Source: Halopiger aswanensis
GTDB taxonomy: Archaea; Halobacteriota; Halobacteria; Halobacteriales; Natrialbaceae
Length of the DNA: 64,000 nt
Direction of reading: 5' to 3'
Assembly: GCF_003610195.1 (NCBI RefSeq)
Contig: NZ_RAPO01000002.1
Coordinates: 930,001 to 994,000 of the forward strand
Below the pieces are notes generated by a model, which was not told the origin of the DNA, did not search any database, and was given only the letters and a program-made list of their open reading frames with translations. The number at the start of each line of letters is the position of its first letter. The first letter of the stretch is position 1. The position numbers and the translations under genes were made by a program. Below are positions 21,347 through 44,496 of the stretch, piece after piece.

Positions 21347-21347
21347 C

Positions 21348-22259
21348 ATGGCAACGGACACGCAACCCGACCCCGCTTCGGTTCCGGAGGGCGAATCGAA
21401 CGCCGGCTTCCTGTGGCTGGGTCCCGAACGCACCGCGCAGGCGAAACGGGTTGGCTTCCACGCGCTGCTGTGGTCGCTGATCGCGCTCGTCCTGTTCCCG
21501 GTGTTCTGGATGTTCGTCGTGTCGGTCAACCAAACCTCCTTCGAGGCGTTCATCGGCGATCCCGTCGGCTGGGCGGCGAACGCGAACCTCGAGGGCTACC
21601 GCGACGTCTGGTTCGGCTCGGACTTCCGCTACTGGTTCCGCAACAGCCTGCTGGTCAGCATCGGCGCGACGATCTTGAGCATCGCGGTCTGTACGCTCGG
21701 CGCGTACAGTATCGGCCGCCTGCGCTACCGCGGCCGGAAGGCGGTGGCGACGTTCCTGCTGATCACGCAGATGTTCCCGGCGATCCTGATCGCGATCCCG
21801 CTGTTCCTAGTCTTCCGGGACATCGGGCTGTTCAACACGCTCACCGGGCTCGTCATCGCGTACGTCGCGTTCACGCTCCCCTTTGCGATCTGGATGCTGC
21901 GCGGGTTCTACGAGAACCTCCCTGAGTCGCTCGAGGAGGCGGCGATGATCGACGGGAGCACGCGGTTCGGCGCCGTCGTACGAGTGATCCTCCCGCTGTC
22001 GGCGCCGGCGATCGCGACGACGGCGATCTTCACGTGGGTCCAGGCGTGGAACGAGTTCGTCTTCGCGCTAATCTTGATCAACGACTCCCAGACCCAGACG
22101 TTGCCGCCGGGGATGTCCCAGTGGGTCGGCCAGTACGCGCTCCAGTGGGACATGCTGATGGCCGGCGCGCTCGGCGCGACGCTGCCGATGCTGATCGTCT
22201 TCTTCCTGCTCCAGAGCTACATCGTCAAGGGGCTGGCGGAAGGCGCCGTCAAGTCGTGA
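21348..22259 (+). CDS. CUT1-type sugar ABC permease, MalG/UgpE-like
   Basis: 303 residues, second CUT1 permease. The coupling motif is NLPESLEEAAMIDGSTRFGAVVRVILPLSAP, followed by IATTAIFTWVQAWNEFVFALIL, both standard for MalG-type subunits. It starts one base after the stop of the first permease (20417-21346), so it is translated from the same mRNA. No ATPase follows; the nearest fitting one is 14631-15839. Confidence 0.93.
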   Translation: MATDTQPDPASVPEGESNAGFLWLGPERTAQAKRVGFHALLWSLIALVLFPVFWMFVVSVNQTSFEAFIGDPVGWAANANLEGYRDVWFGSDFRYWFRNSLLVSIGATILSIAVCTLGAYSIGRLRYRGRKAVATFLLITQMFPAILIAIPLFLVFRDIGLFNTLTGLVIAYVAFTLPFAIWMLRGFYENLPESLEEAAMIDGSTRFGAVVRVILPLSAPAIATTAIFTWVQAWNEFVFALILINDSQTQTLPPGMSQWVGQYALQWDMLMAGALGATLPMLIVFFLLQSYIVKGLAEGAVKS

Positions 22260-23286: not shown

Positions 23287-24759
23287 ATGTCACAGCAAGT
23301 ACACTCTGCAGTCCGCTCCGAATCAGCGATCGACCCCGACGATATCACGATCGCGTACATCGGCGGCGGCAGTCGACAGTGGGCACCGAACCTGATCCGC
23401 GACCTCGCGCAGTCGGACTTACACGGACAGGTCCGGCTCTACGACGAGTACTACGAGAGCGCCCAGTTGAACGCCGAGTTCGGCAACTGGGTCCACGACG
23501 AGGCCGACGTCGAACCCTCGGCAGACTGGTCCTACGAGGCCGTCGAAGACCTCGAGGCGGCGCTGTCCGGCGCCGACGTCGTTATCCTCTCGACCCAGTA
23601 CGATCCGGCGGAGACGTTCGTTCACGACCTCGACATTCCGAAGGAGTACGGCATCTACGGGGCCGTGGCGGCGACGATCGGCCCGGGCGGCATCTTCCGG
23701 GCGATGCGGACCGTCCCGCAGTACCGAAAGTTCGCCGCCGCAATTCGCGAGCACTGCCCCGACGCGTGGGTATTCAACTACACGAACCCGGTCCATTTCG
23801 TGACGCGGGCGCTCTACGACGAGTACCCCGACATCAACGCGCTCGGGCTCTGTCACGAAGTGCTGGGCACCCGCCACCGCCTCGCGCACTACGCTCGCGA
23901 GGAACTCGACATGGACGCCGAGCGGGACGACATCTCGGTCAACGTCAAGGGGATCAACCACTTCACCTGGGTCGACGAGGCCCGCTGCAAGGGTGTCGAC
24001 CTCTGGCCCGTTCTCGAGGAGCTGGTCGAGAGCGACCACGCCCGTCAGGAATTTTCCTGGGACGACCTCGCCGAGGAGAGCGTCTTCGTCGACAACTGGC
24101 AGGTGACCTGGGAACTGTTCCGGCGGTTCGACGTCCTCCCGGCGGCGGGCGATCGCCACCTCGTCGAGTACGCGACGTGGTTCATCCAGGACGGCCAGGA
24201 GGGGCTCAACCGCTGGGGCGTCAAGCGCACCGGCAGCGACTACCGCTCGAAACACTGGACGCCCGCCGAGTCCGACCAGACGACCGACGTCGAAGCCTGG
24301 CTCGAGGGCGAGAAGGAGTTCGAGCTAACCGAATCCAACGAGGTCTTCGTCGATATCCTCCGCGCGCTGGTCGGGCGAGACACCTACGTCACGAACGTCA
24401 ACCTCCCCAACGTCGGCCAGGTCTCGGACCTACAGGACGGCGCCGTCGTCGAAACGAACGCCGTCGTCCGTAACAACGAGGTCAAGCCGACGGCCGCCGG
24501 CGGCTTCCCGCGGCCGGTCCGCAGCCTTATTCGCGGCCACGTCGACACTATCGAAACCGTCATCGAAGCCTCTCGCGACGGCGACGTCGACGCCGCCTTC
24601 CAGGGCTTCCTCATCGACCAGCAGACTCGGACCCTCCAGACCGAGGAGGCCCGCGAACTGTTCGCCGAACTCGTCGCCGCCGAAGAGTCCTACCTGCAGG
24701 ACTGGGCGCTCGAGGACTCGTCGGTTCTCGCGGAAGCGGACGCGTACCCGGCGAACTAA
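23287..24759 (+). CDS. Glycoside hydrolase family 4 enzyme (alpha-glucosidase/alpha-galacturonidase/alpha-glucuronidase type)
   Basis: 490 residues. GH4 enzymes use NAD+ and a divalent metal and act by oxidation-elimination. The Rossmann start is IAYIGGGSRQWAPNLIRDL, then VRLYDEYYESAQL (NAD-binding acid), VFNYTNPVHFVTRAL (family N-x-T-N-P), GLCHEVLG (metal Cys) and NVKGINHFTWV (metal His), so cofactor and metal ligands are present. GH4 covers several alpha-glycosidases including alpha-galacturonidases and alpha-glucuronidases. With GH67 and uronate isomerase nearby, a uronide substrate is attractive but unproven. No signal peptide, so it acts on imported oligosaccharides. Confidence 0.88.
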   Translation: MSQQVHSAVRSESAIDPDDITIAYIGGGSRQWAPNLIRDLAQSDLHGQVRLYDEYYESAQLNAEFGNWVHDEADVEPSADWSYEAVEDLEAALSGADVVILSTQYDPAETFVHDLDIPKEYGIYGAVAATIGPGGIFRAMRTVPQYRKFAAAIREHCPDAWVFNYTNPVHFVTRALYDEYPDINALGLCHEVLGTRHRLAHYAREELDMDAERDDISVNVKGINHFTWVDEARCKGVDLWPVLEELVESDHARQEFSWDDLAEESVFVDNWQVTWELFRRFDVLPAAGDRHLVEYATWFIQDGQEGLNRWGVKRTGSDYRSKHWTPAESDQTTDVEAWLEGEKEFELTESNEVFVDILRALVGRDTYVTNVNLPNVGQVSDLQDGAVVETNAVVRNNEVKPTAAGGFPRPVRSLIRGHVDTIETVIEASRDGDVDAAFQGFLIDQQTRTLQTEEARELFAELVAAEESYLQDWALEDSSVLAEADAYPAN

Positions 24760-24911: not shown

Positions 24912-26969
24912 TCAGACCGGCTCTTCTTCATCGACCGACTTCGCGTGGCGGGCGCGGATCCGCGGGTTGCTGATCCGGTCGAGCGACTGCGAGACGAGGA
25001 TCAGACCCATCGACAGGACGATGATGAACACCGCCGGGACGGCGATGTAGTGAACCTGTCCGAGAGAGTACAGCGCGTTGTTTCGCTGTGCTGCGTCGAG
25101 GACGACCCCCCAGTTACGGGTGCTGCGCGGCAGGAAGCCGAGGAAGTACAGCCCCACCGAGGAGAAGATGATGTTGCGGGCGTTGTTGGCGAGGTTGATG
25201 AGGATGTACGGCCAGATGTTCGGCAGAATGTCCTTCAGGATGATCGAGAACGTATTGACGCCCATCGCGCGAGACGCCTCGACGTACTCCTGACTTCTGA
25301 CCTTGAGCACTTCGGAGCGGATCGAGCGCCCGAGACCACCCCACGCTGCGACGGAGAGGACGAGCCCGACCATCGCCGGGTGGCGCGGTTCGACGATTGC
25401 GGCGATCACGATGATCAGCGGGAGGCCGGGAACGGAAACGATGATGTCACACAGCGTCATCAGCAGACGATCGGTGTTGCCGCCGCGGAACCCGGCGGCT
25501 GCGCCGATACTGACGCCGAGCGTGACCGTCGCGAACGCACCGACCGTAATCATGATCAACACCGGCGAGGTTCCGTGGACCATCAGCGAGAGCAGGTCCT
25601 GGCCGCCGTTGGTCGTTCCGAGCGGGTGTGCGAGGTTCCCGTCGAGGGGCGACACCCACCGCTCGAACGTCGCCGTCGGACTCGGAACGAATCGCGGGCC
25701 GAAGACGGCAAGCAGTACGAACCCGCTCAGGATCGAGGTCCCGAGAAAGCCCCGCCAGTCGCTCAGCACGATCTTCGCGGGCGCGTAAAGGGACCGATCG
25801 AACTTCCGGTAGAGGACGTCCTTTCGGTCGACATCGATAATGTCCTCCTCGCCGAAGAAGCCGTGGGTCGTCGTGCCACCGTCGGCACGCTTTTCGCTGC
25901 TGTTCGTCAGGCGCTTGATGTAGCGCTTGATCTGGGTTCGGATCGGAACGCCCGCTGCGCTCCCGTAGACCTCCATGTCGTCGCCGCCCGTCTTCGCGCG
26001 CGGGTCGAGGCGGCTGTACGTGAGGTCCGCGATGAACATCATGATGACGACGGTGATACAGATCACCATGAACCCGCCGACCATCAGCGGGTAGTCACGG
26101 TTCTGGACGCCCTCGTACATGTACCACCCCATCCCCCGGTACTGGAAGATGTCCTCGAGAATGATCGAGCCGCCGATCATGAACCCGAGGAGCAGGAGGA
26201 GGCCCGTGTACAGCGGCAAGATCGCGTTTCGCATGACGTAGCGTAGGGCGATCCGAGTCGGCGGGAGCCCGCGGAGGCGAGCGACCCGTATGTGGTCTGA
26301 GCCGAGGACGCTGATCGAGTTCCCGCGCATACTGAGCGACGCCGCCGCCCCCGTCACGATCATCGAAAGGATCGGCAAGGCGGCGTGGTGTAACGCGCCG
26401 AAAATGAACTCGCCGTTCAGACCGATATCGGCGCCGCCGGGATACCGCGAGCCGGTCGGGAACCAGCCGAGCTGGTACGCGAAGACGAACGACATCAGGA
26501 GCGCAACCACGTAGTAGGGCGTCGAACTCTCGACGACCGCGACGACCGTCATCGCCGTGTCGAACTTCGATCCCTCGTAGTAGGCCATGATCGCGCCTAG
26601 ACAGATGCTCGTCGTGAACGTGACGACCATCGCGATGGACATGTAGAAGATGGTCCACGGTACTGCCTCGGCGAGGATCTGATTGACGGATTCCTGCTGT
26701 GACATCGAGTACCCCAGATTACCTTGCAGCATCGACGACATGTAACTGAGGTACTGCTCGTACATCGGCGCGTCGGGATTGATGTTGATGTAAATCTCGA
26801 CGAGCCGCCGCGCCGCGTCCGGGTTGTTCGGATTCTCGGACAACATCTGAGCAACCATGGCCTCGAACGGGTTGCCCGGCATCAACCGCACCAACGCGAA
26901 CGTCAGGTGGAACACGACCACGACGGTCAGCACGCTCTGTCCCACTCGCTTAATAAGCCAATTAGTCAT
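24912..26969 (-). CDS. Fused Opp/Dpp-type ABC permease (DppB and DppC domains in one chain)
   Basis: 685 residues. Residues 1 to about 325 are a complete DppB: MTNWLIKRVGQSVLTVVVVFHLTF, the SIPLG-like region, then ALRYVMRNAILPLYTGLLLLLGFMIGGSIILEDIFQYRGMGWYMYEGVQNRDYPLMVGG, ending LTYSRLDPR. Instead of stopping there it continues through a polar linker (about 330-390, including an internal Met at codon 25974-25976) into a complete DppC from about 395: PLGTTNGGQDLLSLMVHGTSPVL, the coupling loop YVEASRAMGVNTFSIILKDILPNIWPYILINLANNARNII, and a final helix. Neither half lacks helices, so this is a fusion and not a broken gene. It probably carries oligosaccharides with the dispersed Opp ATPases and binding proteins. 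Confidence 0.9.
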   Translation of the reverse strand: MTNWLIKRVGQSVLTVVVVFHLTFALVRLMPGNPFEAMVAQMLSENPNNPDAARRLVEIYININPDAPMYEQYLSYMSSMLQGNLGYSMSQQESVNQILAEAVPWTIFYMSIAMVVTFTTSICLGAIMAYYEGSKFDTAMTVVAVVESSTPYYVVALLMSFVFAYQLGWFPTGSRYPGGADIGLNGEFIFGALHHAALPILSMIVTGAAASLSMRGNSISVLGSDHIRVARLRGLPPTRIALRYVMRNAILPLYTGLLLLLGFMIGGSIILEDIFQYRGMGWYMYEGVQNRDYPLMVGGFMVICITVVIMMFIADLTYSRLDPRAKTGGDDMEVYGSAAGVPIRTQIKRYIKRLTNSSEKRADGGTTTHGFFGEEDIIDVDRKDVLYRKFDRSLYAPAKIVLSDWRGFLGTSILSGFVLLAVFGPRFVPSPTATFERWVSPLDGNLAHPLGTTNGGQDLLSLMVHGTSPVLIMITVGAFATVTLGVSIGAAAGFRGGNTDRLLMTLCDIIVSVPGLPLIIVIAAIVEPRHPAMVGLVLSVAAWGGLGRSIRSEVLKVRSQEYVEASRAMGVNTFSIILKDILPNIWPYILINLANNARNIIFSSVGLYFLGFLPRSTRNWGVVLDAAQRNNALYSLGQVHYIAVPAVFIIVLSMGLILVSQSLDRISNPRIRARHAKSVDEEEPV

Positions 26970-27689
26970 CGTTTATTGATACTGATGTACTGCTTCCCAA
27001 CCCTAATAAAATTACTGTTTCAATAAGAACGGACTGCCGCGAAAAGGGGCGTATCCCTCGAGATTGTTCGGCGATTATCCAACAATCGGCTACCTTTTCA
27101 GTGAAATAGGCGGTATCATTTCGGAGTTGACGGCGGAATCCCGTAGAACGATAGTTACGTTTCGGACGTCGATTCCGGCAGGTCGGTAGCGACAACTCGG
27201 TCGGACGGGTGGGCGAGCGACGATCCCCTTCGCCATATCGTTCGTCCGCTGATTGAGGATACAGGGGTGAGCAACCGAACTAATGACCAGACTTAGTTCT
27301 GTATAAGAGAATTCTATTCTTCATTACATCGGATAGCTGGAGCCATTTCACACGATATGCGAAGCAGTAGCATCGGGATCGAGAGGGAATCGCTCGATGT
27401 CCGGGAGAAGATTACACGCGTACCAGTGTAATACTTCGGGCGGCGGTGTGATGTCGAGTGGCGTGATCGTTCGTTTACCGAGTTTAGTGTTAGACAGAAC
27501 ATAGTTCTCTATGGAAGAATCGGATCCAATATAATCGAATAGAGGCGAAGCTACGGGACGAGCCGTTGCACGAGCGGCGAACGATGACCTGCCGCCACCT
27601 CGTTGACCGCTTGCCGATCGCTCGCCGCTATTGCCGCCGCGAAACCACTGTCAGAAATACTAAGACGATCGCTCACAACGGGTCAGGAT
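26970..27689. other. 720-nt divergent spacer between fused permease and GH3 genes
   Basis: AT-rich with no convincing frame. It carries both promoters. A TTTTATTAG TATA-like element (27004-27012, minus sense) lies about 40 nt upstream of the permease ATG, and AAATACTAAG (27655-27664) is 26-35 nt before the GH3 GTG. At 27411-27432 is one 22-bp ATTACA-N10-TGTAAT palindrome, 258 nt from the GH3 start. A GAAC-ATA-GTTC inverted repeat lies near 27500. Spacers this long between divergent catabolic genes usually hold operators. Confidence 0.5.
27411..27432. repeat. 22-bp palindrome, ATTACA-N10-TGTAAT family, copy B
   Basis: Arms ATTACAC and GTGTAAT with central GTAC exactly at the dyad. It is the only one of the four copies located between divergent promoters (fused permease and GH3), where a regulator could act on both genes. 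Confidence 0.7.
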
Positions 27690-30011
27690 GTGACACCAGA
27701 GCCTACCGCTGCGTATCAGGACGAATCGGAATCCGTCGAAAACCGAGTCGAAGACCTCGTAGAGCGGATGACCGTGGAGGAAAAGGCCGCCCAACTGGGC
27801 TCGGTCAACGCCGATCGACTCCTCGACGAGGACGCCGAGATCGACTGGGACGCCGTCGACGAGTGGCTCGCACACGGGATCGGCCACTTCACGCGACTCG
27901 GTGGAGAAGGAAGTCTCTCGCCCAGCGAGGCCGCACGCGTGACGAACGAACTCCAGACCTACCTGCGAGAGGAGACGCGGCTGGGGATCCCCGCGATTCC
28001 GCACGAGGAGTGTCTCAGCGGCTACATGGGACCGGAGGCGACGACCTTCCCGCAGATGCTCGGGATGGCCAGCAGCTGGAATCCCGACCTCCTGCAGACG
28101 GTTACCGAGACGATCCGCGGCGAACTCGAGGGGATCGGCACGGTTCACGCCCTCTCGCCGGTGCTCGACGTGGCGCGTGATCTCCGCTGGGGGCGCGTCG
28201 AGGAGACCTTCGGCGAGGACCCGTACATGGTCGCCGAGATGGCGCGGGCGTACGTGTCGGGACTCCAGGGCGAGGGGCGCGCGGACGGTATCTCGGCGAC
28301 GCTGAAGCACTTCGTCGGCCACGGCGCGACCGACGGCGGAAAGAACCGCTCCTCGCTCAACGTCGGGCCGCGGGAACTCCGCGAGACCCACCTGTTCCCC
28401 TATGAGGCCGTCATCAGCGAGGCCAACGCCGAGTCGGTGATGAACGCCTACCACGACATCGACGGCGTCCCCTGCGCCAGCTCCGAGTGGCTCCTGACCG
28501 ACGTCCTGCGCGGCGAGTTCGGCTTCGACGGCACCGTCGTCTCGGACTACTACAGCGTTCGGCACCTCGTGACCGAACACGAGACCGCGAACACGAAACC
28601 CGAGGCCGCCGTCCAGGCCCTCGAGGCCGGTATCGACGTCGAACTCCCCTACACGGAGTATTACGGAGAGCATCTTGTCGAGGCCGTCGAGAAAGGCGAC
28701 CTCGCCGAAGAGACGCTGAACGAATCGGTGCGTCGCGTCCTCCGTGAGAAGTTCCGGAAGGGCGTCTTCGACGACCCCGCGGTCGACGCGGACGCGGCCG
28801 CGGACGCCTTCCACAACGAGGAGGCCCGCGAGGTCACCCGCGAAGCCGCCCGCCAGTCGATGACCCTGCTCAAGAACGACGACGAGTTGCTCCCGCTCGA
28901 CGTCGACGACGTGGCCGTCGTCGGTCCGAAGGCCGACAATCCGAAGGAGCTGATGGGCGACTACGCCTACGCGGCACACTACCCCGAAGAGGAGTACGAG
29001 GCCGACGCCGTCACCCCGCTCGAGGCGCTCGAGGCCCGCGACGACGTCGACGTCACCTACGAGCAGGGCTGTACGATCTCCGGCCCCTCGACGGACGGCT
29101 TCGACGCGGCGACCGACGCCGCCGCGGGCGCGGACGTCGCACTCGCGTTCGTCGGCGCACGCTCGGCGGTCGACTTCTCCGACGTCGAGGCCGAGAAGGA
29201 GGAGAAGCCCAGCGTCCCGACCAGCGGCGAGGGCTGCGACGTGACCCACCTCGGCCTGCCCGGCGTGCAGGAGGAACTCGTCACGGAACTGCTCGAGACG
29301 GATACGCCGGTCGTGGTCGTCCTCGTCAGCGGCAAACCCCACGCCATCGAGGACATCGCCGAAGAGGCCCCCGCGATCCTCTACGCGTGGCTCCCCGGCG
29401 ACGAGGGCGGCCCGGCGATCGCCGAGACGCTGTTCGGCGAGAACAACCCCGCCGGAAAGCTCCCCGTCTCCTTGCCCAAGTCGGTCGGTCAGCTGCCGGT
29501 CTACTACAACCGGAAAGAAAACACCGCGAACAAGGACTACGTCTACACCGACAGCGACCCGGTTTACCCGTTCGGCCACGGCGAGAGCTACACCGAGTTC
29601 GAGTACGGCGACGTCTCGCTGTCGACCGACAGCGTCACGCCGCTCGGATCGGTCACCGCGAGCGTGATGGTCACGAACGTCGGCGACCGCACCGGCGACG
29701 AGATCGTCCAGTGTTACACCCGGGCGACGAACGCGAGTCAGGCTCGTCCCGTTCAGGAACTGCTGGGCTTCGAGCGCGTCTCGCTCGAGCCGGGCGAATC
29801 GAAACGCGTCAGCTTCGACCTGTCGGCCACGCAGTTGGCCTTCCACGACCTCAGTATGAACCTCGCCGTCGAGGAAGGGCCCTACGAGATCCGCATCGGC
29901 CGCTCGGCCGGCGACATCGTCGCGACCGCTGCCCTCGAGGTAACGGACACGAAGCAGGTCCCGAAGACCGCGCGGACGTACTTCACGGAGACGTCGGTCG
30001 ACGCGGAGTAA
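27690..30011 (+). CDS. Glycoside hydrolase family 3, probable beta-xylosidase/beta-glucosidase
   Basis: 773 residues. Domain 1 is the (beta/alpha)8 barrel: VEDLVERMTVEEKAAQLGS, HALSPVLDVARDLRWGRVEETFGEDPYMV, ATLKHFVGHG and NRSSLNVGPRELRE. The catalytic nucleophile Asp is in GFDGTVVSDYYSV (near residue 286). Domain 2 follows from about 390 (SMTLLKNDDELLPLD) and a C-terminal fibronectin-III-like domain (GDEIVQCYTRATNASQARPVQELLGFERVSLEPGESKRVSF). There is no signal peptide, so it releases xylose or glucose from imported oligosaccharides. The likely start is GTG 27690, correctly spaced from a TATA-like element; an ATG at 27603 would lie upstream of that element. It is followed by uronate isomerase on the opposite strand. 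Confidence 0.9.
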   Translation: MTPEPTAAYQDESESVENRVEDLVERMTVEEKAAQLGSVNADRLLDEDAEIDWDAVDEWLAHGIGHFTRLGGEGSLSPSEAARVTNELQTYLREETRLGIPAIPHEECLSGYMGPEATTFPQMLGMASSWNPDLLQTVTETIRGELEGIGTVHALSPVLDVARDLRWGRVEETFGEDPYMVAEMARAYVSGLQGEGRADGISATLKHFVGHGATDGGKNRSSLNVGPRELRETHLFPYEAVISEANAESVMNAYHDIDGVPCASSEWLLTDVLRGEFGFDGTVVSDYYSVRHLVTEHETANTKPEAAVQALEAGIDVELPYTEYYGEHLVEAVEKGDLAEETLNESVRRVLREKFRKGVFDDPAVDADAAADAFHNEEAREVTREAARQSMTLLKNDDELLPLDVDDVAVVGPKADNPKELMGDYAYAAHYPEEEYEADAVTPLEALEARDDVDVTYEQGCTISGPSTDGFDAATDAAAGADVALAFVGARSAVDFSDVEAEKEEKPSVPTSGEGCDVTHLGLPGVQEELVTELLETDTPVVVVLVSGKPHAIEDIAEEAPAILYAWLPGDEGGPAIAETLFGENNPAGKLPVSLPKSVGQLPVYYNRKENTANKDYVYTDSDPVYPFGHGESYTEFEYGDVSLSTDSVTPLGSVTASVMVTNVGDRTGDEIVQCYTRATNASQARPVQELLGFERVSLEPGESKRVSFDLSATQLAFHDLSMNLAVEEGPYEIRIGRSAGDIVATAALEVTDTKQVPKTARTYFTETSVDAE

Positions 30012-30068: not shown

Positions 30069-31433
30069 TCAGAACCCGTACAGTTCTTTCGGCCGGTCGT
30101 ACGCAAGCCGTTCGACGAGGTCCCGCGCAACGTCCATCGGCACCTGCCCGCGGTCGACCTGTTTTCCGACGACGTTCGCCAGCGAACGGCGGAACATCTC
30201 GAAGCGCGAGCCGTACGACAGCAGCTTTCGCGAGTCGCTGACCATGCCCGCGTGCTGGGAGAGCAGTTCGACGGTACCGACGTACTCGAGTTGCCCCTCG
30301 ATGCCGAACGGGCTGTCGTTGAACCACCAGGCCGGGCCGATCGTGACGTTCGGGAAGACCCGCGCGATCGTCGCGATCGTCGGGTAGTGGGTCGGGTCGA
30401 TCGTGTAGAGCACGACGTCCATCTCGTCGTCGAACCGGTTGAGGAAGTGCTCGAGGGGCTTCGCGAGGTCGACGTCCCGGGTCGAGATGTCGCCGCCGGC
30501 GGCGGGGCCGAGCCGCTCGAACAGCGAGTCGCGGTAGTTGCGGACGGGCCCGATGTGTAGCTGCGTGACCCACCCTTTCGCGGCGTTCAACTCGCCGATG
30601 TACTCGGTGAGGTACGCCTGGAAGTCCTCGACCTCGCGCTCCGAGAGCGAGCCGCCCGCGAGTCCCCGCCGGTAGATCTCGCGTGCGCGTTCGTCGCTAA
30701 CCGGCCGCGAGACGGGCTGTTCGATCCCGAGGTCGCAGGCCCGACAGCCCCGCCCGGCGAAGTAGTCGTGTGAGGCCTCGAGCGCCGCGAGGAAGCCGTC
30801 GAAGTCGTCCGTGCTAACGTCGGTCGCGGCCTCGAGTTCGGCGACGAAGTCGGTCCACTCGGGGCGCTCGATTTTGACGGCCCGATCCGCGCGCCACGTC
30901 GGGACGATGTCGACGCCTTCGACCTCGTCAGCGGCGCGCTCGTGGTATGCGAGGTCGTCCGTCGGATCGTCCGTGCTGCCGACGACCTCGACGTTCATCT
31001 CGGCGAGCAGTTCCTGCGGGCGCATGTCGTCGGCGGCGAGTTGGGCCTTCGTTTCCGCCCAGATCTCGTCGGCCGTCTCGGCGGAGATCGGCTTCTCGAT
31101 ACCGAAGCGCCGTTTGAGGTCGAGGTGGACCCACTCGTAGGTCGGGTTGCCGGCGAACTGCGGGAACACCTCGGCGAGGGCGGTCCACTTCTCTCGGTTG
31201 TCGGCGTCGCCGGTGATCAGTTCCTCGTCGACGCTGCAGTTGCGCATCAGTGCCCAGACGTAGTGGTCCGTCGCGGCCTCGACCTCCCAGATGTCGTTCC
31301 AGCCGTCGTTTGCGACGATTTCGGCGACGTCGGCGTGGGTGTGGGGATCGACGATCGGCAGGTCGGCGATGGCGTCGTACAGCTCTCGGGCGGCGTCGGT
31401 CTCGAGGAGATAGTCCTCGTCGAGGAAGCTCAT
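30069..31433 (-). CDS. uxaC: Uronate isomerase (glucuronate isomerase)
   Basis: 454 residues of the UxaC amidohydrolase-fold family. Family landmarks are LPIVDPHTHADVAEI (metal-binding HTH near residue 35), NREKWTALAEVFPQFAGNPTYEWVHLDLKRRFGI, VVGSTDDPTDDLAYH, LHIGPVRNY, and the C-terminal VSDSRKLLSYGSRFEMFRRSLANVVG. It converts D-glucuronate to D-fructuronate or D-galacturonate to D-tagaturonate. This fits glucuronate released by the GH67 enzyme at 35949. No fructuronate reductase or mannonate dehydratase of the classical route is seen in this window. ATG 31433 was chosen; an in-frame GTG at 31442 would add three residues. A TATA box is centred near 31462. Confidence 0.92.
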   Translation of the reverse strand: MSFLDEDYLLETDAARELYDAIADLPIVDPHTHADVAEIVANDGWNDIWEVEAATDHYVWALMRNCSVDEELITGDADNREKWTALAEVFPQFAGNPTYEWVHLDLKRRFGIEKPISAETADEIWAETKAQLAADDMRPQELLAEMNVEVVGSTDDPTDDLAYHERAADEVEGVDIVPTWRADRAVKIERPEWTDFVAELEAATDVSTDDFDGFLAALEASHDYFAGRGCRACDLGIEQPVSRPVSDERAREIYRRGLAGGSLSEREVEDFQAYLTEYIGELNAAKGWVTQLHIGPVRNYRDSLFERLGPAAGGDISTRDVDLAKPLEHFLNRFDDEMDVVLYTIDPTHYPTIATIARVFPNVTIGPAWWFNDSPFGIEGQLEYVGTVELLSQHAGMVSDSRKLLSYGSRFEMFRRSLANVVGKQVDRGQVPMDVARDLVERLAYDRPKELYGF

Positions 31434-31457
31434 ACGCGTCACGTCCCGGCGAATCGA

Positions 31458-33079: not shown

Positions 33080-34054
33080 ATGTCTGACGAGCCAACGCTG
33101 CGTACAGTCGCCGATAGCAACGAGTTCAGGATCGGCGCCGCGCTCGATCCCGACGCGCTGCGCGTCGACCCGAGTTACTGGAAGACCGCCAAAAACGAGT
33201 TTAACGCGATCACGCCCGAGAACGCCCTGAAGATGGGGCCGCTCCGCCCGTCGCGTCACACCTACGACTTCGAAGACGCGGACGCGATCGTCAACTTCGG
33301 CGTCGAGCACGACATGTACGTGCGCGGGCACACGCTCGTGTGGCACAACCAGAAGCCCGGTTGGTTCCAAGCCTGGGACTACACGCCGGACCAGTTGCGA
33401 ACCTTCCTGCGAGACCACATTCACACCGTCGCCGGGCGCTACCGGGCGAAAATCGACGCCTGGGACGTCGTCAACGAGGCCGTCGACGACGACGGCTCGA
33501 TGCGCGAAACCGTCTGGTCCGACGCGCTCGGCGAGGACTACCTCGCGGACGCCTTCCGGTGGGCCGCCGAGGTCACCGACGCCGACCTCTACTACAACGA
33601 CTACGGCGCCGACGCGGTAAACGAGAAGTCAGACGCCATCTACGACCTCCTCGAGGAGTTGCTGGCCGACGGCGTCCCGATCGACGGCGTCGGCCTCCAG
33701 CTACACGCGCTGGGCGACCACCCCGATCCGGACTCGATCGCCGAAAATATCGAACGGTTCCAAGACCTCGGTCTCGACGTCCAGATCACCGAGATGGACG
33801 TGGCGTTCCACGCCGGCGAGGCGCCCGAAAACGCCGACGAGGTTCAGGCCGACTACTACCGCGAGGTCGTCGACGCCTGCCGCGACGCGGGCTGTGACAC
33901 GATCGTCACGTGGGGCGTCCACGACGGCAGTTCCTGGCTCCGGAGTTTCAAGGACTTCGGCGAGCGCTACACCGGCGATCCGCTGCTGTTCGACGATCGG
34001 TACGACGAAAAGCCGGCCTACGACGCGGTGAAAGCGGCGCTCGCGGACCGGTAG
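33080..34054 (+). CDS. GH10 endo-1,4-beta-xylanase, intracellular
   Basis: 324 residues, the bare catalytic domain. GH10 signatures are FNAITPENALKMGPLRPSRHTYDFEDAD, VRGHTLVWHNQKPGWF, the acid/base Glu in DAWDVVNEAV (near residue 133) and the nucleophile Glu in VQITEMDV (near residue 238), followed by WGVHDGSSWL. No Tat or Sec signal and no binding module, so it is cytoplasmic and probably trims imported xylo- or aldouronic oligosaccharides. Intracellular GH10 plus GH67 is a known pairing in bacterial glucuronoxylan loci. It converges with the secreted GH10 gene across a 19-nt gap. Confidence 0.94.
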   Translation: MSDEPTLRTVADSNEFRIGAALDPDALRVDPSYWKTAKNEFNAITPENALKMGPLRPSRHTYDFEDADAIVNFGVEHDMYVRGHTLVWHNQKPGWFQAWDYTPDQLRTFLRDHIHTVAGRYRAKIDAWDVVNEAVDDDGSMRETVWSDALGEDYLADAFRWAAEVTDADLYYNDYGADAVNEKSDAIYDLLEELLADGVPIDGVGLQLHALGDHPDPDSIAENIERFQDLGLDVQITEMDVAFHAGEAPENADEVQADYYREVVDACRDAGCDTIVTWGVHDGSSWLRSFKDFGERYTGDPLLFDDRYDEKPAYDAVKAALADR

Positions 34055-34073: not shown

Positions 34074-35756
34074 TTACGACTCCTCCTCGTCGCCCCGCAT
34101 CACGGCGTAGCCGGCGAGTCCCGAGAGGCCGGCAAGCCCCGTAGCGACGCCGAGGCCCGGAACGCTGTCGTCGGTGTCCCCGATCCCGTCGGCGCCGCCC
34201 TCATCGTCACCGCTCCCGTCGGCATCGCCGCCGTCGCTCGAGTCGCCGTCGCTCGAGTCGCCGTCTGAACTGCCACCCGAGTCGCCCTCGAGCGTCAGTT
34301 CGACGGTCTCGCCGCCGTCCGAAACCGTCGCCGCGGTCGTCGTCTCCGCGCCGTCGTACCGGGCGGTGATCTCGTACTCGCCCTTGAACGCCCGCGTTTC
34401 GTAGACGCCGCCGTCGGTCTCGCCCGTTTCGTCGGTCCACCACTCGTCGAAGACCAGGTCCGTGTAGTGGTCGTGGGCCGGCTTTGTGTTCCAGTCCAGA
34501 TCGAAGAGGACGCCGTCGGGTTCGGAGCCGTCGAAGTCCGGGGCCCAGTGGACGCCGTCCCAGTGGCCCCACACGAGGAACGAGTCGGTGTCGGGGTGGC
34601 TGAACCACGTCTTCAGGAAGGTTCGGAGGAACTCGCCCTGTTCCTCGGGGCTCTCCCAGTCGCCCTGGAAGGTGTCGAACTCGGTCGCCCGGAAACCCGC
34701 GCCGTAGCCCTCGTAGCGCTCGAGGTCGGCGAGGAGTTCGTCGGGTTCCAGCGTCTCGTCGGCGGCGAAGTGACACTGGAAGCCGATTCCGTCGAGGTCG
34801 ATCCCGCGCTCGTTGACCAGGTAGTCGATCTGGCGCTCGTACTCGGCCTGGGTGTCGTCGTAGCCGCCCTCGAGCGCGTTGTAGTCGTTGACGGCGATCT
34901 CGACGCCGTACTCGTCGGCGACTTCCTCGGCGTGCTCGTACCAGTCGCCGAGGATCTCCGCGGTGGTCGGGTCGACGTCTTCGCCCTCGACGGCCTCGAT
35001 CATGGCCGTCTCGTGGAGGACCTCGTTTTTGACCTCCCACTCTTTGATGTCCTCGCCGTAGTGGGAGATGATCTCCTCGATGTGCTCGTTCGCGCGCTCG
35101 ACGACGTACTCCGGGTCGTGGTCGGGGTCGGTCGCGCCGCCGGCCTCCCACTCGATCCCCATCGCCTCGACGACGTCGGCCGGGATCGCCCAGGCGCCGA
35201 CGTTGCCCCACAGGCAGACGTGGCCGCGAACGTCCATATCGCGCTCGACTGCCCAGTCGACCGCGTTGTCCGCGATTTCCTGGTTGTCCTCCCACTGGTT
35301 CCACTTGTGGAGGTTCTCGAGAACGACCGTGTTGAACAGGTCCGCGACGGTCTCGCGGTACTGCTGTCGGTCCTCCTCGTCGAATTCCGTGCCGTCGGGC
35401 GCCTCGAGCGGACTTCCCCACTCGGTCCCCTCGGTGAGGAACTCCGCGTGGATCATCGTCCCGAAGTCGTACTCGTGGGCCTGCATTTCGACGTCGACCT
35501 CGGCACCGTCGAGTTCGGTCCCCTCGCCGTCGGTGACCCGCACCTCGAGGTCGGCAGTTCGGTGCTCCCGAATCCGCTCTTCGGCCGCAGTCTCCCAGTC
35601 GGTATCCTGGGCTGTCCCAGCGGCCGCTCTCGCAGTACCGGCACCGGTCCCGACGGCGCCGGCGACGCCGAGCGCCCCCAGCGACGCCAGAACCGGCCGG
35701 CGCCTGATCGTCTTCCGATCGCAGTATCGGCTGCTCTCCATGCTATCGTCTCGCAT
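34074..35756 (-). CDS. Secreted, C-terminally anchored GH10-type xylanase
   Basis: 560 residues. N-terminus: twin-arginine region (RKTIRRRPVLASLGALG) and a hydrophobic stretch ending ARAAAG. After a beta-rich module (LEVRVTDGEGTELDGAEVDVEMQ) comes a divergent GH10 barrel with RGHVCLWGN, the acid/base Glu in WEVKNEV (near 245), the nucleophile Glu in RATEFDT (near 359) and LVWGHWDGVHWAP. A second beta module precedes a Ser/Asp/Gly-rich repetitive linker (SSDGDSSDGDSSDGG) and a PGF-CTERM-like tail, VPGLGVATGLAGLSGLAGYAVM plus acidic end, suggesting archaeosortase-type processing and cell-surface attachment. The tail has Leu where the classic motif has Phe. It is probably the enzyme that first attacks xylan outside the cell. 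Confidence 0.88.
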   Translation of the reverse strand: MRDDSMESSRYCDRKTIRRRPVLASLGALGVAGAVGTGAGTARAAAGTAQDTDWETAAEERIREHRTADLEVRVTDGEGTELDGAEVDVEMQAHEYDFGTMIHAEFLTEGTEWGSPLEAPDGTEFDEEDRQQYRETVADLFNTVVLENLHKWNQWEDNQEIADNAVDWAVERDMDVRGHVCLWGNVGAWAIPADVVEAMGIEWEAGGATDPDHDPEYVVERANEHIEEIISHYGEDIKEWEVKNEVLHETAMIEAVEGEDVDPTTAEILGDWYEHAEEVADEYGVEIAVNDYNALEGGYDDTQAEYERQIDYLVNERGIDLDGIGFQCHFAADETLEPDELLADLERYEGYGAGFRATEFDTFQGDWESPEEQGEFLRTFLKTWFSHPDTDSFLVWGHWDGVHWAPDFDGSEPDGVLFDLDWNTKPAHDHYTDLVFDEWWTDETGETDGGVYETRAFKGEYEITARYDGAETTTAATVSDGGETVELTLEGDSGGSSDGDSSDGDSSDGGDADGSGDDEGGADGIGDTDDSVPGLGVATGLAGLSGLAGYAVMRGDEEES

Positions 35757-38937: not shown

Positions 38938-40095
38938 TCAGTCGGCCGCCGAGGAATCGTCGATCGTCGACGACTCCTCGAAGGCATCTTCGTCGACGAG
39001 GTCCTCGCTCTCCCAGTACTCGTGGTCCTCGACCTCGCGGAAACACTTCGTCTTGTGGGGCTCGTCGCTGTCGCTCTCGTAGAACTCGGGTGACTGCTCG
39101 CGGCAGGCCTCCCGGGCCTTCGGACAGCGGGTGTGGAACCGACAGCCCGACGGCGGGTTCGTCGCGTCCGGGATGTCGATCTTCCGGACCGGCGGCGACT
39201 CGCGCATCGCCTGTTCGGCCTGTTCGGGGTCGAGTTCCGGCGTCGCCCACTGGAGCACCTTGGTGTAGGGGTGTTTGGGGTTCTGGATGATCTCCTCGGC
39301 CGTCCCCAGTTCGACCAGTTCGCCGAGGTACATCACGCCGATCTTGCCGCCGGACTTGCCGGCGAGGTAGCGGGCGTTCGCTAAGTCGTGGCTGATGAAC
39401 ACGAACGAGGTGTCGAAGATCTCCTGCAGTTCGAGGAAGAGATCCATCACGCCGATGCGAAGGGAGACGTCGAGCGCCGAGACGGCTTCGTCGGCGAGGA
39501 TGACCTCGGGCTCGACCAACAGCGCGCGGATCAGGGCGACGCGCTGCTGTTCGCCGCCCGACAGCTGGTGGACGTACCGCTCGGCGTAGTCCTCCGGCGG
39601 GCTGATCCCGGTCCGCTCGAGCAGTTTGAGGATCCGCCCGCGACGCTCGGCGTAGTTGAGTTCGGGGTGCCAGCGCTTCAGCGGGACCTCGAGGTTCTCG
39701 AGGACTGACCGGTAGGGGTTCAGCGCGGAGCCGGGGTCCTGGTGGATGATCTGCAGCGAGCGGCGGATCTCCTCGAAGGTGATGTCGTCGTCCTTCCCCT
39801 CGCGGACGTCCCAGATGTCGTGACCGCGGTACTCGACGGAGCCGTTCGTGGGCCGAGTCAGGCCGACCATCGTCTTGCCGAGGGTGGTCTTGCCGCTGCC
39901 GCTCTCGCCGACCAGCGCGAGGACGTCGTTCTCGCCGAGGTCCAGGCTGATGTCGTCGACGGCGTGGACGGTCGGGTCCTCCTCGAGGCCGAGCCGGTCG
40001 CTGAGCCACGACGGCGTCACGGAGTTCAGCATCGAGGAGTCCTCGAAGTGCACGTCGAGGTTCTGCACCGAGATCACGGGGTCGTCGTCGCTCAT
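38938..40095 (-). CDS. Opp/Dpp-type ABC transporter ATP-binding protein (OppF/DppF-like)
   Basis: 385 residues. Walker A GESGSGKTTLGKTM, Q-loop IIHQDPGSALNP, signature LSGGEQQRVALIRAL, Walker B VILADEAVSALD and switch ISHDLANARY. The C-terminal oligopeptide-family extension carries CRFHTRCPKAREAC, the cysteine-rich segment that in Opp/Dpp ATPases may bind an iron-sulfur cluster. It overlaps the upstream OppD-type gene by 4 nt, so the two subunits are coupled and should form a heterodimer. No permease is adjacent; the likely partner is the fused permease at 24912-26969. Substrate is probably a xylan oligosaccharide by context. Confidence 0.92.
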   Translation of the reverse strand: MSDDDPVISVQNLDVHFEDSSMLNSVTPSWLSDRLGLEEDPTVHAVDDISLDLGENDVLALVGESGSGKTTLGKTMVGLTRPTNGSVEYRGHDIWDVREGKDDDITFEEIRRSLQIIHQDPGSALNPYRSVLENLEVPLKRWHPELNYAERRGRILKLLERTGISPPEDYAERYVHQLSGGEQQRVALIRALLVEPEVILADEAVSALDVSLRIGVMDLFLELQEIFDTSFVFISHDLANARYLAGKSGGKIGVMYLGELVELGTAEEIIQNPKHPYTKVLQWATPELDPEQAEQAMRESPPVRKIDIPDATNPPSGCRFHTRCPKAREACREQSPEFYESDSDEPHKTKCFREVEDHEYWESEDLVDEDAFEESSTIDDSSAAD

Positions 40096-41153
40096 TCGTC
40101 GTCACCTCCGAAGGAGAGGGGGACCGCTTCGTCGGCCTGCTCCCAGTAGTGACAGCGGACCTCGTGGTCGTCGTTGACGGTGATAAACTCCGGATCGTCG
40201 ACCTCGCAGCGCTCGTCGCTGAGCGGACACCGCGGATGGTACGAACACCCCTGCGGGTGGCTCACCGGGTCCGGGCTCTCGCCCTCGATCGGCCGCATTT
40301 CGTCGAGCGAAATCTCGAGGTTCGGCGTCGACTTGAGCAGCGCCCGCGTGTAGGGGTGGACCGAGTTGCCGAGGATCTCGTTGGCCTCGCCGACCTCGAC
40401 GAACTCGAAGGCGTACAGCACCGCCAGCCGGTCGGCGAACCCGGAGACGATCGGCAGGTCGTGGCTGATAAAGACGAGCGTGACGTTGTACTTGTCCTTG
40501 ATGTCGTACAGCAGGTTCAAAATGGAGCGCTGCATCAACAGATCGAGCGCGGCGGTCGGCTCGTCCATGACGAGCACTTCCGGTTCGAGAATCAGGCTCA
40601 ACGCGATCAGCGCGCGCTGTTTCTGGCCCCCGCTGAGCTCGTGGGGGAACGAGGACATCATCCGGTCGGGCTCGAGGTGGAGATCCGAGAACAGTTCCCG
40701 CGCTCGCTCGAGACCCTCCGCCTTGTCCCAGTTGTGGGCGTCGAGGGTCTCCTCGAAGTGTTCGCCGATGCTCATCGTCGGGTTGAACGCGCTCATCGCG
40801 CCCTGGAAGACCATCGAGATCTTCTCCCAGCGCAGTTCGCGCAGTTCCCACGGCTCGAGGTTGAGCACGTCGACCGGTTCGCCGTCCTCCGGATAGAAGG
40901 TGATCTCGCCGGTCAAGATCCCCGGATCGACGACGGCGTCGAGCAAGGCGTCGGCGAACATCGACTTCCCGCTGCCGGACTCGCCGACGACGCCGAGGGT
41001 TTCCCCGCGGTGGATGTCCATACTGACGTCGTTGAGCACGTTCGACGTTCCCTTGTCCATCTCGAACCGAACGTTTGCGTTTCGAACCGTGATGACGGGA
41101 TCCGCCGCGGTTCGATCGTTCATCTCCGCCGTATCGAGCGTATTACTTGACAT
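40092..41153 (-). CDS. Opp/Dpp-type ABC transporter ATP-binding protein (OppD/DppD-like)
   Basis: 353 residues. Walker A GESGSGKSMFADAL, Q-loop MVFQGAMSAFNPTMSI, signature LSGGQKQRALIALSL, Walker B VLVMDEPTAALD, switch ISHDLPIVSGF, and the oligopeptide-transporter tail with CSYHPRCPLSDERCEV. First gene of the leftward ATPase pair. ATG 41153 was chosen; an in-frame GTG at 41159 adds two residues. A TATA-like ATATATAT at 41259-41266 would leave a leader of roughly 80 nt, unusual among the mostly leaderless genes here, so either regulation or a nearer unnoticed promoter is possible. Confidence 0.92.
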   Translation of the reverse strand: MSSNTLDTAEMNDRTAADPVITVRNANVRFEMDKGTSNVLNDVSMDIHRGETLGVVGESGSGKSMFADALLDAVVDPGILTGEITFYPEDGEPVDVLNLEPWELRELRWEKISMVFQGAMSAFNPTMSIGEHFEETLDAHNWDKAEGLERARELFSDLHLEPDRMMSSFPHELSGGQKQRALIALSLILEPEVLVMDEPTAALDLLMQRSILNLLYDIKDKYNVTLVFISHDLPIVSGFADRLAVLYAFEFVEVGEANEILGNSVHPYTRALLKSTPNLEISLDEMRPIEGESPDPVSHPQGCSYHPRCPLSDERCEVDDPEFITVNDDHEVRCHYWEQADEAVPLSFGGDDE

Positions 41154-41258
41154 GTTCACTCACCCTGTCGGACGATGTGTGCAACCGATTGGCACACAGT
41201 GTTGAGAGACCACAGACCGATGGCACGTGACATTCGATATCACGTTTGGGCTTTCGTC

Positions 41259-41433: not shown

Positions 41434-42507
41434 ATGGGGTTAGACGACGTACGCGACTACCTAGAGTCGTTCACACATCGGGATTGGCAAGCGTCGGCGG
41501 ACGACGACGGCGTCGTCCGGTTCGCGCTGGTCGGCCTCGGATGGTGGACCAGAGAACGGGCGATGCCAGCGATCGAGAACTCGACGTTCTGCGAGACGAC
41601 CGTCGTCGTCAGCAGATCGGCGGCAAAGGCGGAACGGGTCGCCGCCGAGCACGACACCGTGGAGGCGGGACTGTCGGCCGAGGCGTTCCACGACGGCGCC
41701 GCTGTCGACGCCTACGACGCCGTCTACGTCTGCACGCCGAACGCTCGCCACCTCGAGTTCGTCGAGAGCGCGGCCGCCCACGACAAGGCGGTCCTCTGCG
41801 AGAAACCGATGGAGGCAACCCTCGAGCGCGCGGAGCGACTCGCGGACGCGGCAGCGGACGTGCCCGCGATGATCGCCTACCGGATGCACACGGAGCCGGC
41901 CGTCAGGCGAGCTCGCGAACTCGTTCGCGCGGGCTCGATCGGCGACCCCGTCCACGTGCACGGAAACATGTCCCAGTCGATCACCGGCTGGGGGCCCGAT
42001 CAGTGGCGGCTGGATCCCGACCTGGCCGGCCCCGGCACGAGCGTGACCGACCTCGGCATCTATCCGCTGAACACGACGCGGTTCGTCCTCGAGAGCGATC
42101 CGGTCGCCGTCCAGTCGATGATGGACTCGAGCCACGAGTACTTCGAGGACGTGCCCGACGAAGTCGCGAGCTTCAACGTGACCTTCGAGGACGGGACGCT
42201 CGCGAGTTGCACGGCCAGCCAGCACGCACACCTCGACAGTTTCCTGCGGATCGTCGGCAGCGACGGGCGCCTGTGCATCGAGCCCGCGTTCCACTCGGAG
42301 AGCAGCCTTCGAGCGACGGTCGGTGAGACGACGATCGACATCGAGACGCCGCAGGTCGACCAGATGGAAGAAGAGTTCGACTACTTCGCCGACTGCCTGC
42401 TCGACGATCGATCGGCGTACGCGACGCCCGAACACGGCCTCGTCGATATGCAGGCCATCGAAGCGATCTACGACGCCGCCGAGCGGAACGAGACGCGCAC
42501 GCTCTGA
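41434..42507 (+). CDS. xacA: D-xylose 1-dehydrogenase, Gfo6/XacA type
   Basis: 357 residues of the Gfo/Idh/MocA family. It has the characteristic haloarchaeal XDH N-terminus before the Rossmann fold: DYLESFTHRDWQ, then VRFALVGLGWWTRERAMPAIENSTFCETTVVVSR. The GLGWWT turn and the acidic/polar end of strand two fit the Haloarcula/Haloferax NADP-dependent xylose (arabinose) dehydrogenases. EKPMEATLERAERLAD holds the catalytic Lys; YRMHTEPAVRRARELV and GTSVTDLGIYPLNTTRF form the substrate domain. It oxidises D-xylose to xylonolactone, the entry step of the oxidative pathway. Divergent from the Opp ATPases and followed 159 nt later by the second Opp-type binding protein. Confidence 0.92.
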   Translation: MGLDDVRDYLESFTHRDWQASADDDGVVRFALVGLGWWTRERAMPAIENSTFCETTVVVSRSAAKAERVAAEHDTVEAGLSAEAFHDGAAVDAYDAVYVCTPNARHLEFVESAAAHDKAVLCEKPMEATLERAERLADAAADVPAMIAYRMHTEPAVRRARELVRAGSIGDPVHVHGNMSQSITGWGPDQWRLDPDLAGPGTSVTDLGIYPLNTTRFVLESDPVAVQSMMDSSHEYFEDVPDEVASFNVTFEDGTLASCTASQHAHLDSFLRIVGSDGRLCIEPAFHSESSLRATVGETTIDIETPQVDQMEEEFDYFADCLLDDRSAYATPEHGLVDMQAIEAIYDAAERNETRTL

Positions 42508-42666: not shown

Positions 42667-44496
42667 ATGCCAGCAGACAATCAGAGCAAGGAGTATCTAT
42701 CGCGACGGAAGATGTTGGCCCTGACCGGTGCAGCGGGCGCAGCAACGATCGCAGGCTGTTCCGGGGGGAACGGAAACGGCGACGATCCCGACGACGTCCT
42801 CGGTAGTAATACGGAAGAAATCGAAGCCGAGATCCCCGAGAACTACGAGGAGGAGATGCACGAGGCGAACCCGGGGAGTTCAGCGAATCCGTACAACGGA
42901 GAGTATATCTTCAACGAGTACCACCAACTCTGGAACGGCGGCGACATGCAGGAGACCTGCTTCGAGTACCTCGCCGTCTACAACACGGAACGCGGGGAGT
43001 ACATCCCCCGCGTCGCCGAGGACTGGACCGTCGACGAGAATAACAACGTCGAGGTGCAACTCAGCGAAGACTACGGCTGGCACGACGGCTCCGACATCAC
43101 GGCCGAGGACTTCGCAGCCAGAATCCGGATGGACGGCTACATGCAGATGGGGATCGAGCAGTACATCGATCCCGACGAGGGCGTCCGCGCCGTCGACGAC
43201 TACACGCTGGAGATCGAACCCCGCGACGAGTACACCGACCTCGAGCAGGGCCTGTGGGAGGCCCAGTGGGCCGAGACGCTGCTGACGGTCTCCGCGGAGC
43301 AGTACGGCGACTTCCTCGAGCAGTTCGAAGAAGCGAGCTCCGAGGAGGAACAGCAGTCGGTTCAAGAAGACGTGATCGGCTTCGAGCCCCAGTGGAACGA
43401 AGTCAAGTACTCGGGGCCGTTCTTCTACGCGGAAGCGAACGAACAGTACGCGGACCGGCTGCCGAATCCGAACCACCCGATCGCGCAGGATTGGGAGTTC
43501 TTCCTCCGCGTCGGCATCTACGAGGAAGAGGAGGGACTGCGGTCGGGCGACGTCGACTGGCTCCACAACGACCCGACCCTCGAGGACCTGCCGGAGAAGT
43601 ACGACGAACCGCCGGTGTCCTACTCGGGCCAGACGCTCGCGATCATCTTCGGCGGCGAGGACGAGTACATTCGGGACTACCCCGAAGTTCGCCAAGCGAT
43701 CGCGTACGCGGTCGACATGCCGAACGTCACCGAAGTGACCTCGCCCGGAACGCCGGTCGACGAGTACTCCGGCGGCATCGACTCCGGCTACATCGAGAAC
43801 TTCGTCTCGGAGGACGTGCTCGACGCGATGCCCAACTACGCACCCCAGGACACCGACCGTGCGGCCGAACTGCTCGAGGAGGTCGGCTTCTCCCGCAACG
43901 GTGACGACATGTGGGAGACGCCCGACGGCGACCTGTGGACGCTGAACTTCCCGGTCGGGGACTGGTTCGAGACCCACTCGGAGATGGTGTACAATAACCT
44001 CGCCGAGTTCGGGATCGACGTCGACTGGTACGTCCAGGAGATGCCGACCTGGCAGGCCGAAACCCAGAACGACCTCGCCTACGACCTGACCATCCACCTC
44101 AACTACGGGATGGCCCGCGAGTACCACGCGCACTCGGACCTGTACGAGGAGATGTACAGCACCACCCGCGGGATCTTCACGACCGACCGCGACCTCTTCG
44201 CCGAAGAGGTCGAGGTGCCGGAGGTCGGCAACCCCGACGGCGACACGGTCACGATCAACATCCCCGAGGAACTCGAGGCGCTCTCGACGGCCGACACCGA
44301 CGAAGCGGTCCAAGAGCACGCGAGCAATCTCGCCTGGGTGCACAACCAGCTCCTCCCCGCCGCGATGGTCTTCCCGTGGAGCGAACACTACTGGGTTAAC
44401 GCCGGCGAGTGGGACTTCGACCTCGAGACCGACGACTGGCTGACCTCGAACCGCATCACGCACTACCTGCTCCAGAACGACCTCGCACCGGAATAA
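42667..44496 (+). CDS. Family 5 (Opp/Dpp-type) extracellular solute-binding lipoprotein, copy 2
   Basis: 609 residues. Tat motif SRRKMLALTG, lipobox IAGC and an Asn/Gly/Asp linker. Mature part collinear with copy 1: FNEYHQLWNGGDMQETCFEYLAVYNTERGEYIPRVAEDWTVDENNNVEVQLSEDYGWHDGSDITAEDF, HPIAQDWEFFLRVGIYEEEEGLRSGDVDW, YPEVRQAIAYAVDMPNVTEV, MPTWQAETQNDLAYDLTIHLNYG. By eye it is clearly paralogous to 7927-9852 along its full length, but more diverged than the xacE and xacF pairs. It lies near the Opp ATPases and probably delivers xylan-derived oligosaccharides to the fused permease; ligand identity is inference. Confidence 0.9.
   Translation: MPADNQSKEYLSRRKMLALTGAAGAATIAGCSGGNGNGDDPDDVLGSNTEEIEAEIPENYEEEMHEANPGSSANPYNGEYIFNEYHQLWNGGDMQETCFEYLAVYNTERGEYIPRVAEDWTVDENNNVEVQLSEDYGWHDGSDITAEDFAARIRMDGYMQMGIEQYIDPDEGVRAVDDYTLEIEPRDEYTDLEQGLWEAQWAETLLTVSAEQYGDFLEQFEEASSEEEQQSVQEDVIGFEPQWNEVKYSGPFFYAEANEQYADRLPNPNHPIAQDWEFFLRVGIYEEEEGLRSGDVDWLHNDPTLEDLPEKYDEPPVSYSGQTLAIIFGGEDEYIRDYPEVRQAIAYAVDMPNVTEVTSPGTPVDEYSGGIDSGYIENFVSEDVLDAMPNYAPQDTDRAAELLEEVGFSRNGDDMWETPDGDLWTLNFPVGDWFETHSEMVYNNLAEFGIDVDWYVQEMPTWQAETQNDLAYDLTIHLNYGMAREYHAHSDLYEEMYSTTRGIFTTDRDLFAEEVEVPEVGNPDGDTVTINIPEELEALSTADTDEAVQEHASNLAWVHNQLLPAAMVFPWSEHYWVNAGEWDFDLETDDWLTSNRITHYLLQNDLAPE

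Follow-up and report, generated by a model that had tools for sequence, protein, structure and literature searches.

A single-chain DppB-DppC fusion in Halopiger aswanensis was confirmed by sequence comparison to be real and not a sequencing error. The gene was studied within a window, by which is meant the whole 64,000-nucleotide stretch of DNA that was analyzed. We consider it very probable that the product forms the core of an Opp/PepT-type ABC importer with B and C in one polypeptide, having the assembly, partners, substrate and origin proposed below. The fusion departs only modestly from a well-known type of transporter and is conserved in related haloarchaea. Coordinates are collected in the table.

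Features of the fused permease and its surrounding locus (window positions)
Feature	Position	Strand	Basis
Fused OppB-OppC permease, 685 aa	24912..26969	minus	ORF; two BPD_transp_1 + PF19300
B half (DppB/OppB-like), residues 1-326, about six hydrophobic segments	25992..26969	minus	8z1v alignment; NCBIfam; hydropathy
C half (DppC/OppC-like), residues 386-685	24915..25814	minus	413-664 aligns with DppC/OppC chains; NCBIfam
B-half coupling loop, residues 225-252, DHIRVARLRGLPPTRIALRYVMRNAILP	26214..26297	minus	many invariant columns, 24 fused proteins
C-half EAA coupling loop, residues 561-584, EYVEASRAMGVNTFSIILKDILPN	25218..25289	minus	many invariant columns, 24 fused proteins
Gly336 codon (GGG), column of TGA stop in split B genes	25962..25964	minus	junction codons, 50 loci
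Basic amphipathic linker stretch, residues 342-356, PIRTQIKRYIKRLTN	25902..25946	minus	clade-conserved; not in split relatives
C-terminal linker part, residues 361-385, RADGGT...	25815..25889	minus	like split-C N-terminal tail, judged by eye
OppD-type ATPase, likely partner	40092..41159	minus	ABC_tran + oligo_HPY
OppF-type ATPase, likely partner	38938..40095	minus	ABC_tran + oligo_HPY
Lipoprotein family-5 substrate-binding protein, likely partner	42667..44496	plus	SBP_bac_5; lipobox AGC
GH10 xylanase without signal peptide, probably cytoplasmic	33080..34054	plus	PF00331; N-terminus
Secreted GH10 xylanase, twin-Arg-like signal, C-terminal anchor	34074..35756	minus	
GH3 glycosidase	27603..30011	plus	
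GH4 glycosidase	23287..24759	plus	orthologue adjoins fused permease in L020-L022, Halosolutus
Glucuronate isomerase UxaC	30069..31442	minus	NCBIfam PRK02925 523.5 vs cut-off 387
D-xylose 1-dehydrogenase Gfo6	41434..42507	plus	NCBIfam NF041392 548.6 vs cut-off 350
2,5-dioxovalerate dehydrogenase, oxidative pentose pathway end	45999..47447	plus	NCBIfam NF052305 885.9 vs cut-off 750

The reading frame ran on the minus strand from an ATG at 26969 to a TGA at 24912-24914 (685 codons), and its start was unambiguous because an in-frame TAA lay two codons 5' of the ATG. A Pfam search of the 685-residue product returned two BPD_transp_1 domains and the DppB-type N-terminal domain PF19300. When aligned to solved structures, residues 2-326 matched DppB/OppB chains over nearly their full length (DppB 2-336 of 8z1v), and residues 413-664 aligned with solved DppC/OppC chains; residues 1-326 were therefore assigned as a whole B subunit and residues ~386-685 as a whole C subunit, with a span of about 60 residues between them. 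The original prediction had described two complete permease halves with their own coupling loops in one frame, joined through a polar cytoplasmic linker of about 60 residues; ORF, Pfam and structure alignments agreed on the halves, and the linker was upheld. Among NCBIfam models, Opp2B was matched by the B half at 213 bits and Opp4C by the C half at 158 bits, both under the model cut-offs. As the scores were below all equivalog cut-offs among the matches listed, no named subfamily was assigned. The best 25 of 26 NCBIfam matches were all to Opp/Dpp/Nik/Sap/Yej/Gsi/Cnt-type models, with no thiamine/ferric permease (ThiP/FbpB-type) among them. A CUT1-type identity was also ruled out; CUT1-type permeases were present as separate genes at 20417-22259.

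Hydropathy gave roughly six segments in each half, and the even number in B places its C-terminus on the same side as its N-terminus. In Opp permeases the N-terminus of B is cytoplasmic, and the C subunit begins on the cytoplasmic side. An AlphaFold2 model of the window protein, built with seven orthologues (a shallow alignment), had a mean pLDDT of 38.8 and a pTM of 0.28 and so gave the linker no structural support.

No displaced stop had been seen at the junction in the original prediction, and this held: the coding frame was open there and the orthologues were stop-free. Of the other two same-strand frames at the junction, one had stops and the other was open by chance. The frames on their own thus left the error question undecided; orthologues and substitution patterns settled it. 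Among the 391 Halobacteria genomes of the sample, 12, with the window counted, carried a full-length, stop-free orthologue (73-100% identity). Full-length orthologues at 72-82% identity were found in seven named genomes, which overlap partly in species with the sampled set (Natronorubrum texcoconense, Natrialba swarupiae, Natronobiforma cellulositropha, strain YIM A00010, Saliphagus infecundisoli, Haladaptatus halobius and Halocatena pleomorpha). The search of haloarchaeal genomes proposed with the original prediction thus recovered the fused architecture, and every orthologue found was fused, where that prediction had allowed that all might prove to be two genes. Matches to the B half at ≥79% identity were all fused and the next best, at 58%, was split; no split orthologue was found in this search. 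NCBI annotation likewise gave a single gene in Halosolutus, Halocatena and Haladaptatus (WP_247004275.1, WP_247994848.1 and WP_227378710.1, respectively). Across close orthologue pairs, linker dN/dS was 0.14, 0.34 and 0.19 in three parts, vs. 0.06-0.08 in the permease halves of the same pairs, and linker dS (0.44-0.48) was equal to that of the core. Core-like dS with low dN/dS indicated that the linker is translated and under purifying selection. Frameshift error was ruled out by the fused orthologues.

Many split B genes of the family end in D-P-R-A, a few residues and E-[S/A]-Y-stop, with the codons TAC-TGA. Junction codons were compared over 50 loci, and L083 was examined separately. In all 15 fused orthologues the stop column read Y-G (TAC-GGN); in other fused proteins it read Y-G (L037, L063, L064, L067), Y-A (L062) or Y-S (L069, L083), and in L068, L070 and L071 the Tyr before it was lost. 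TGA to GGA is a one-base change. Recoding of the TGA in split pairs was ruled out, as starts are annotated for the C genes themselves and no recoding is needed. Past the stop column, every fused protein compared carried a basic, mostly amphipathic stretch, whereas split C genes had acidic N-terminal tails; net charges were +1 to +6 for the fused stretches vs. -14 to -1 for the split-C tails (L042 was omitted, its C start being unreadable). Because the sequences are related and different segments were compared, the p-value of this contrast is indicative only. On visual comparison, the last linker part, RADGGT, was similar to the tail that split C genes carry, R-[AS]-D-G-G-[TN]. The linker can be read as a B tail, the former stop, a new helix and a C tail. 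Since the junction falls at the B stop column of split relatives, the simplest origin would be loss of the B stop codon between neighboring B and C genes. A profile of the clade linker scored clearly above shuffles for only 2 of the ten other fused linkers, with two more marginal, and so does not demonstrate common linker descent. In four split pairs (L076, L077, L078, L080) the annotated C start lay 14 nt inside the end of B, in another frame, an overlap that would block fusion through simple stop loss.

At least 10 other fused Opp permeases were found in haloarchaea; given these and the NCBI single-gene annotations, the window fusion is not unique. A phylum-wide search, with two candidates scored per genome, gave matches below 1e-110 in Halobacteria only. 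In a tree of 50 B+C pairs, the 15 orthologues formed one clade (support 100/100), and nine other fused proteins were scattered among split pairs, with five state changes (the tenth, L083, was found later and is absent from this tree). Separate B and C trees again placed the fused orthologues in one clade. The sequences appear compatible both with repeated fusion and with an ancestral fusion followed by fissions, and with one or several origins.

The fused form might be ancestral in the haloarchaeal family, the split pairs having arisen by repeated fission, each time through gain of a TGA at the same codon, a history that we regard as possible but on the unlikely side. The fused clade branches first when the tree is rooted on two distant split pairs, Gly occupies the stop column in separate lineages, and the AU test left a single fused group standing (p = 0.069, above rejection). 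However, the unconstrained tree, with its five changes, was 47 log units above the tree with one fused group, distant outgroups and the solved bacterial systems are split, and no remnant of the amphipathic linker was visible in split pairs. Repeated joining of B and C via loss of the same TGA, with a basic amphipathic helix arising each time, is likewise put forward only tentatively. If it is true, the helix would be a required element, for example a membrane-surface strap for a single-chain obligate heterodimer, and the haloarchaeal group would be a natural experiment in subunit fusion.

Partner proteins were assigned by comparison with related loci. OppD of the window was 74-82% identical to orthologues beside fused permeases in L022, L023, L025 and L026, vs. 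at most 64% to paralogues of its own genome, and OppF was 72-78% identical to orthologues beside fused permeases. In L023, L025 and L026 the fused permease had a homologue of the binding protein (50-58%) directly upstream, and in these three loci and in annotated Halocatena salina the binding protein, OppD and OppF adjoin the fused permease. In the window, the ATPases and binding protein are 12-18 kb from the permease and not contiguous with it, so the proposed partnership rests on these relatives. The closest PDB relative of the 42667-44496 protein was 2o7i, which we take to be a Thermotoga cellobiose-binding protein. Another family-5 binding protein of the window (7927-9852, minus strand, 641 aa) had 74% identity to one of the two that lie near the Saliphagus fused permease (L024); it could also serve the fused permease, and one permease may thus serve two binding proteins. 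In the same genome, paralogous Opp systems showed the reverse of the window arrangement, with OppD and OppF in one frame (734-769 aa; G000:C4 399790-401874 and 471946-474009) and the permeases split. In Halomontanus rarus (L067) and Halocatena marina (L071), a fused permease lay near a ~736-aa ATPase gene, and there both the permease pair and the ATPase pair are apparently fused.

The genes around the permease included those of xylan and glucuronate breakdown, and a like set was present in Halosolutus, Haladaptatus and Halocatena. From this gene context, xylo-oligosaccharides are the likeliest substrate, and the Dpp (dipeptide) label of the original prediction is misleading. Archaeal ABC sugar importers of Sulfolobus and Pyrococcus include Opp-type systems. 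Sulfolobus takes up sugars through ABC transporters of two families, and Pyrococcus takes up cellobiose through an ABC transporter (Elferink 2001 and Koning 2001, as cited in PMC10267330). All subunits belong to the Opp/Dpp family, as they would if the system were a genuine peptide importer, true to its Dpp name and in a xylan locus by chance; this was judged distinctly unlikely, given that in several genera the fused permease is again found near genes for xylan and glucuronate use, that 2o7i is the closest solved relative of the binding protein, and that archaeal ABC sugar uptake is on record. The sugar locus also held, at 16596-18269 (minus strand), a 557-aa thermosome-like protein scoring well under the NCBIfam thermosome cut-offs. 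Elsewhere in the window, a divergent 1115-aa molybdoenzyme resembling formate dehydrogenase alpha (57004-60351, minus strand) was adjoined by a 231-aa protein with an iron-sulfur-like Cys motif.

For xylan-fragment import by the fused chain, the following operation is proposed. The B half would end in the cytoplasm, and the C half would start from the cytoplasm as in split permeases; between them, the ~60-residue linker, which carries the basic amphipathic helix, would span the cytoplasmic face. The two halves would pair within one molecule as the usual B/C heterodimer, and their coupling loops would engage the OppD and OppF ATPases of 38938-41159. Fragments would be released by the secreted GH10 and handed over by the lipoprotein, most likely as xylo-oligosaccharides or (methyl)glucuronoxylan fragments; GH10, GH3 and GH4, with the xylose and glucuronate pathways, would finish the breakdown inside.

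The original prediction had pointed to a Met in the linker where a separate DppC would start. This Met is present (residue 332, codon 25974-25976), but it is missing in L023, L024, L025, L034, L035 and L036, and it is neither the DppC start nor a remnant of it: B genes of split relatives run on to the column of residue 336, four residues past Met332. Two working products could be made from the one frame by internal initiation near the linker or proteolysis within it, and a GAGG stretch in the E-V codons just past Met332 would fit such initiation, as would the Met itself. We nevertheless give this little credence, because in-frame start codons in the linker are at non-conserved sites, L025 has none ahead of the C-half membrane segment, and the single ones of L024 and L036 are at differing sites. 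A separately initiated C subunit in the fused clade is thus unlikely on these sequences; the chain might still be cleaved after translation. A 1:1 B:C stoichiometry fixed by the fusion is a reasonable inference. An artificial join of two separate genes by sequencing or assembly error was given practically no weight: split B/C pairs are the rule among paralogues of this genome, but the same fusion recurs in the 12 sampled genomes and seven named records, linker indels all keep the frame, and the linker is under purifying selection.

Opp/Dpp importers are usually described with two membrane subunits; here they form a single chain, from which extant split relatives differ at the stop codon. Fused and split relatives together offer a clean system for asking what fusion buys and what linker it needs. 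A possible gain is fixed pairing, with protection against cross-pairing with the close split permeases of the same genome, in which at least six Opp systems with separate B and C genes were found (38-57% identity). The peptide-transport name is corrected, the locus being probably a halophilic-archaeal importer of xylan oligosaccharides. For annotation, B-C fusions of the Opp family should not be handled as frameshift errors.

The features of the PepT / Opp-Dpp family (TC 3.A.1.5) were present: two BPD_transp_1 domains, PF19300, homology of both halves, a coupling (EAA-type) loop per half, and, linked by synteny in relatives, an oligo_HPY ATPase pair and a family-5 binding protein. In a TCDB-based survey of uptake porters, the family has two membrane proteins of 5-8 segments each (PMC3654945). 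The usual two permease polypeptides, a trait outside the sequence definition, are replaced here by one conserved ORF. As judged from its genes, the system keeps all tested Opp/Dpp sequence features and departs in subunit organization only. No published description of a fused OppB-OppC permease was found in the open-access literature. Most of each half could be aligned to the solved DppBC (8z1v, 8wd9) and OppBC (8z21). Also shared with the solved PepT systems are the coupling loops, the family-5 binding protein and the pair of oligo_HPY ATPases; the differences are one polypeptide instead of two and the extra basic amphipathic linker. Two-domain fused importer permeases are known in ThiP of E. 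coli (PMC555942) and the FutB-type ferric permeases (PMC3654945), which likewise have two homologous ~6-segment domains per chain, but these belong to other ABC importer families and the linker is longer in the window permease. The Sulfolobus and Pyrococcus sugar importers and a split Halopiger xanaduensis paralogue share the Opp-type permease, family-5 binding protein and nearby glycoside hydrolases, whereas the permease halves of the H. xanaduensis paralogue, beside a GH115 gene, are separate genes. Other fused haloarchaeal Opp permeases (Halomontanus rarus WP_317175708; Haloarcula marina WP_254280609 and WP_254280800; Halocatena marina WP_264556562 and WP_264556289) are also single-gene B-C fusions with the junction near the same place, but are 43-47% identical, on separate tree branches, and for most of them the linker similarity was insignificant.
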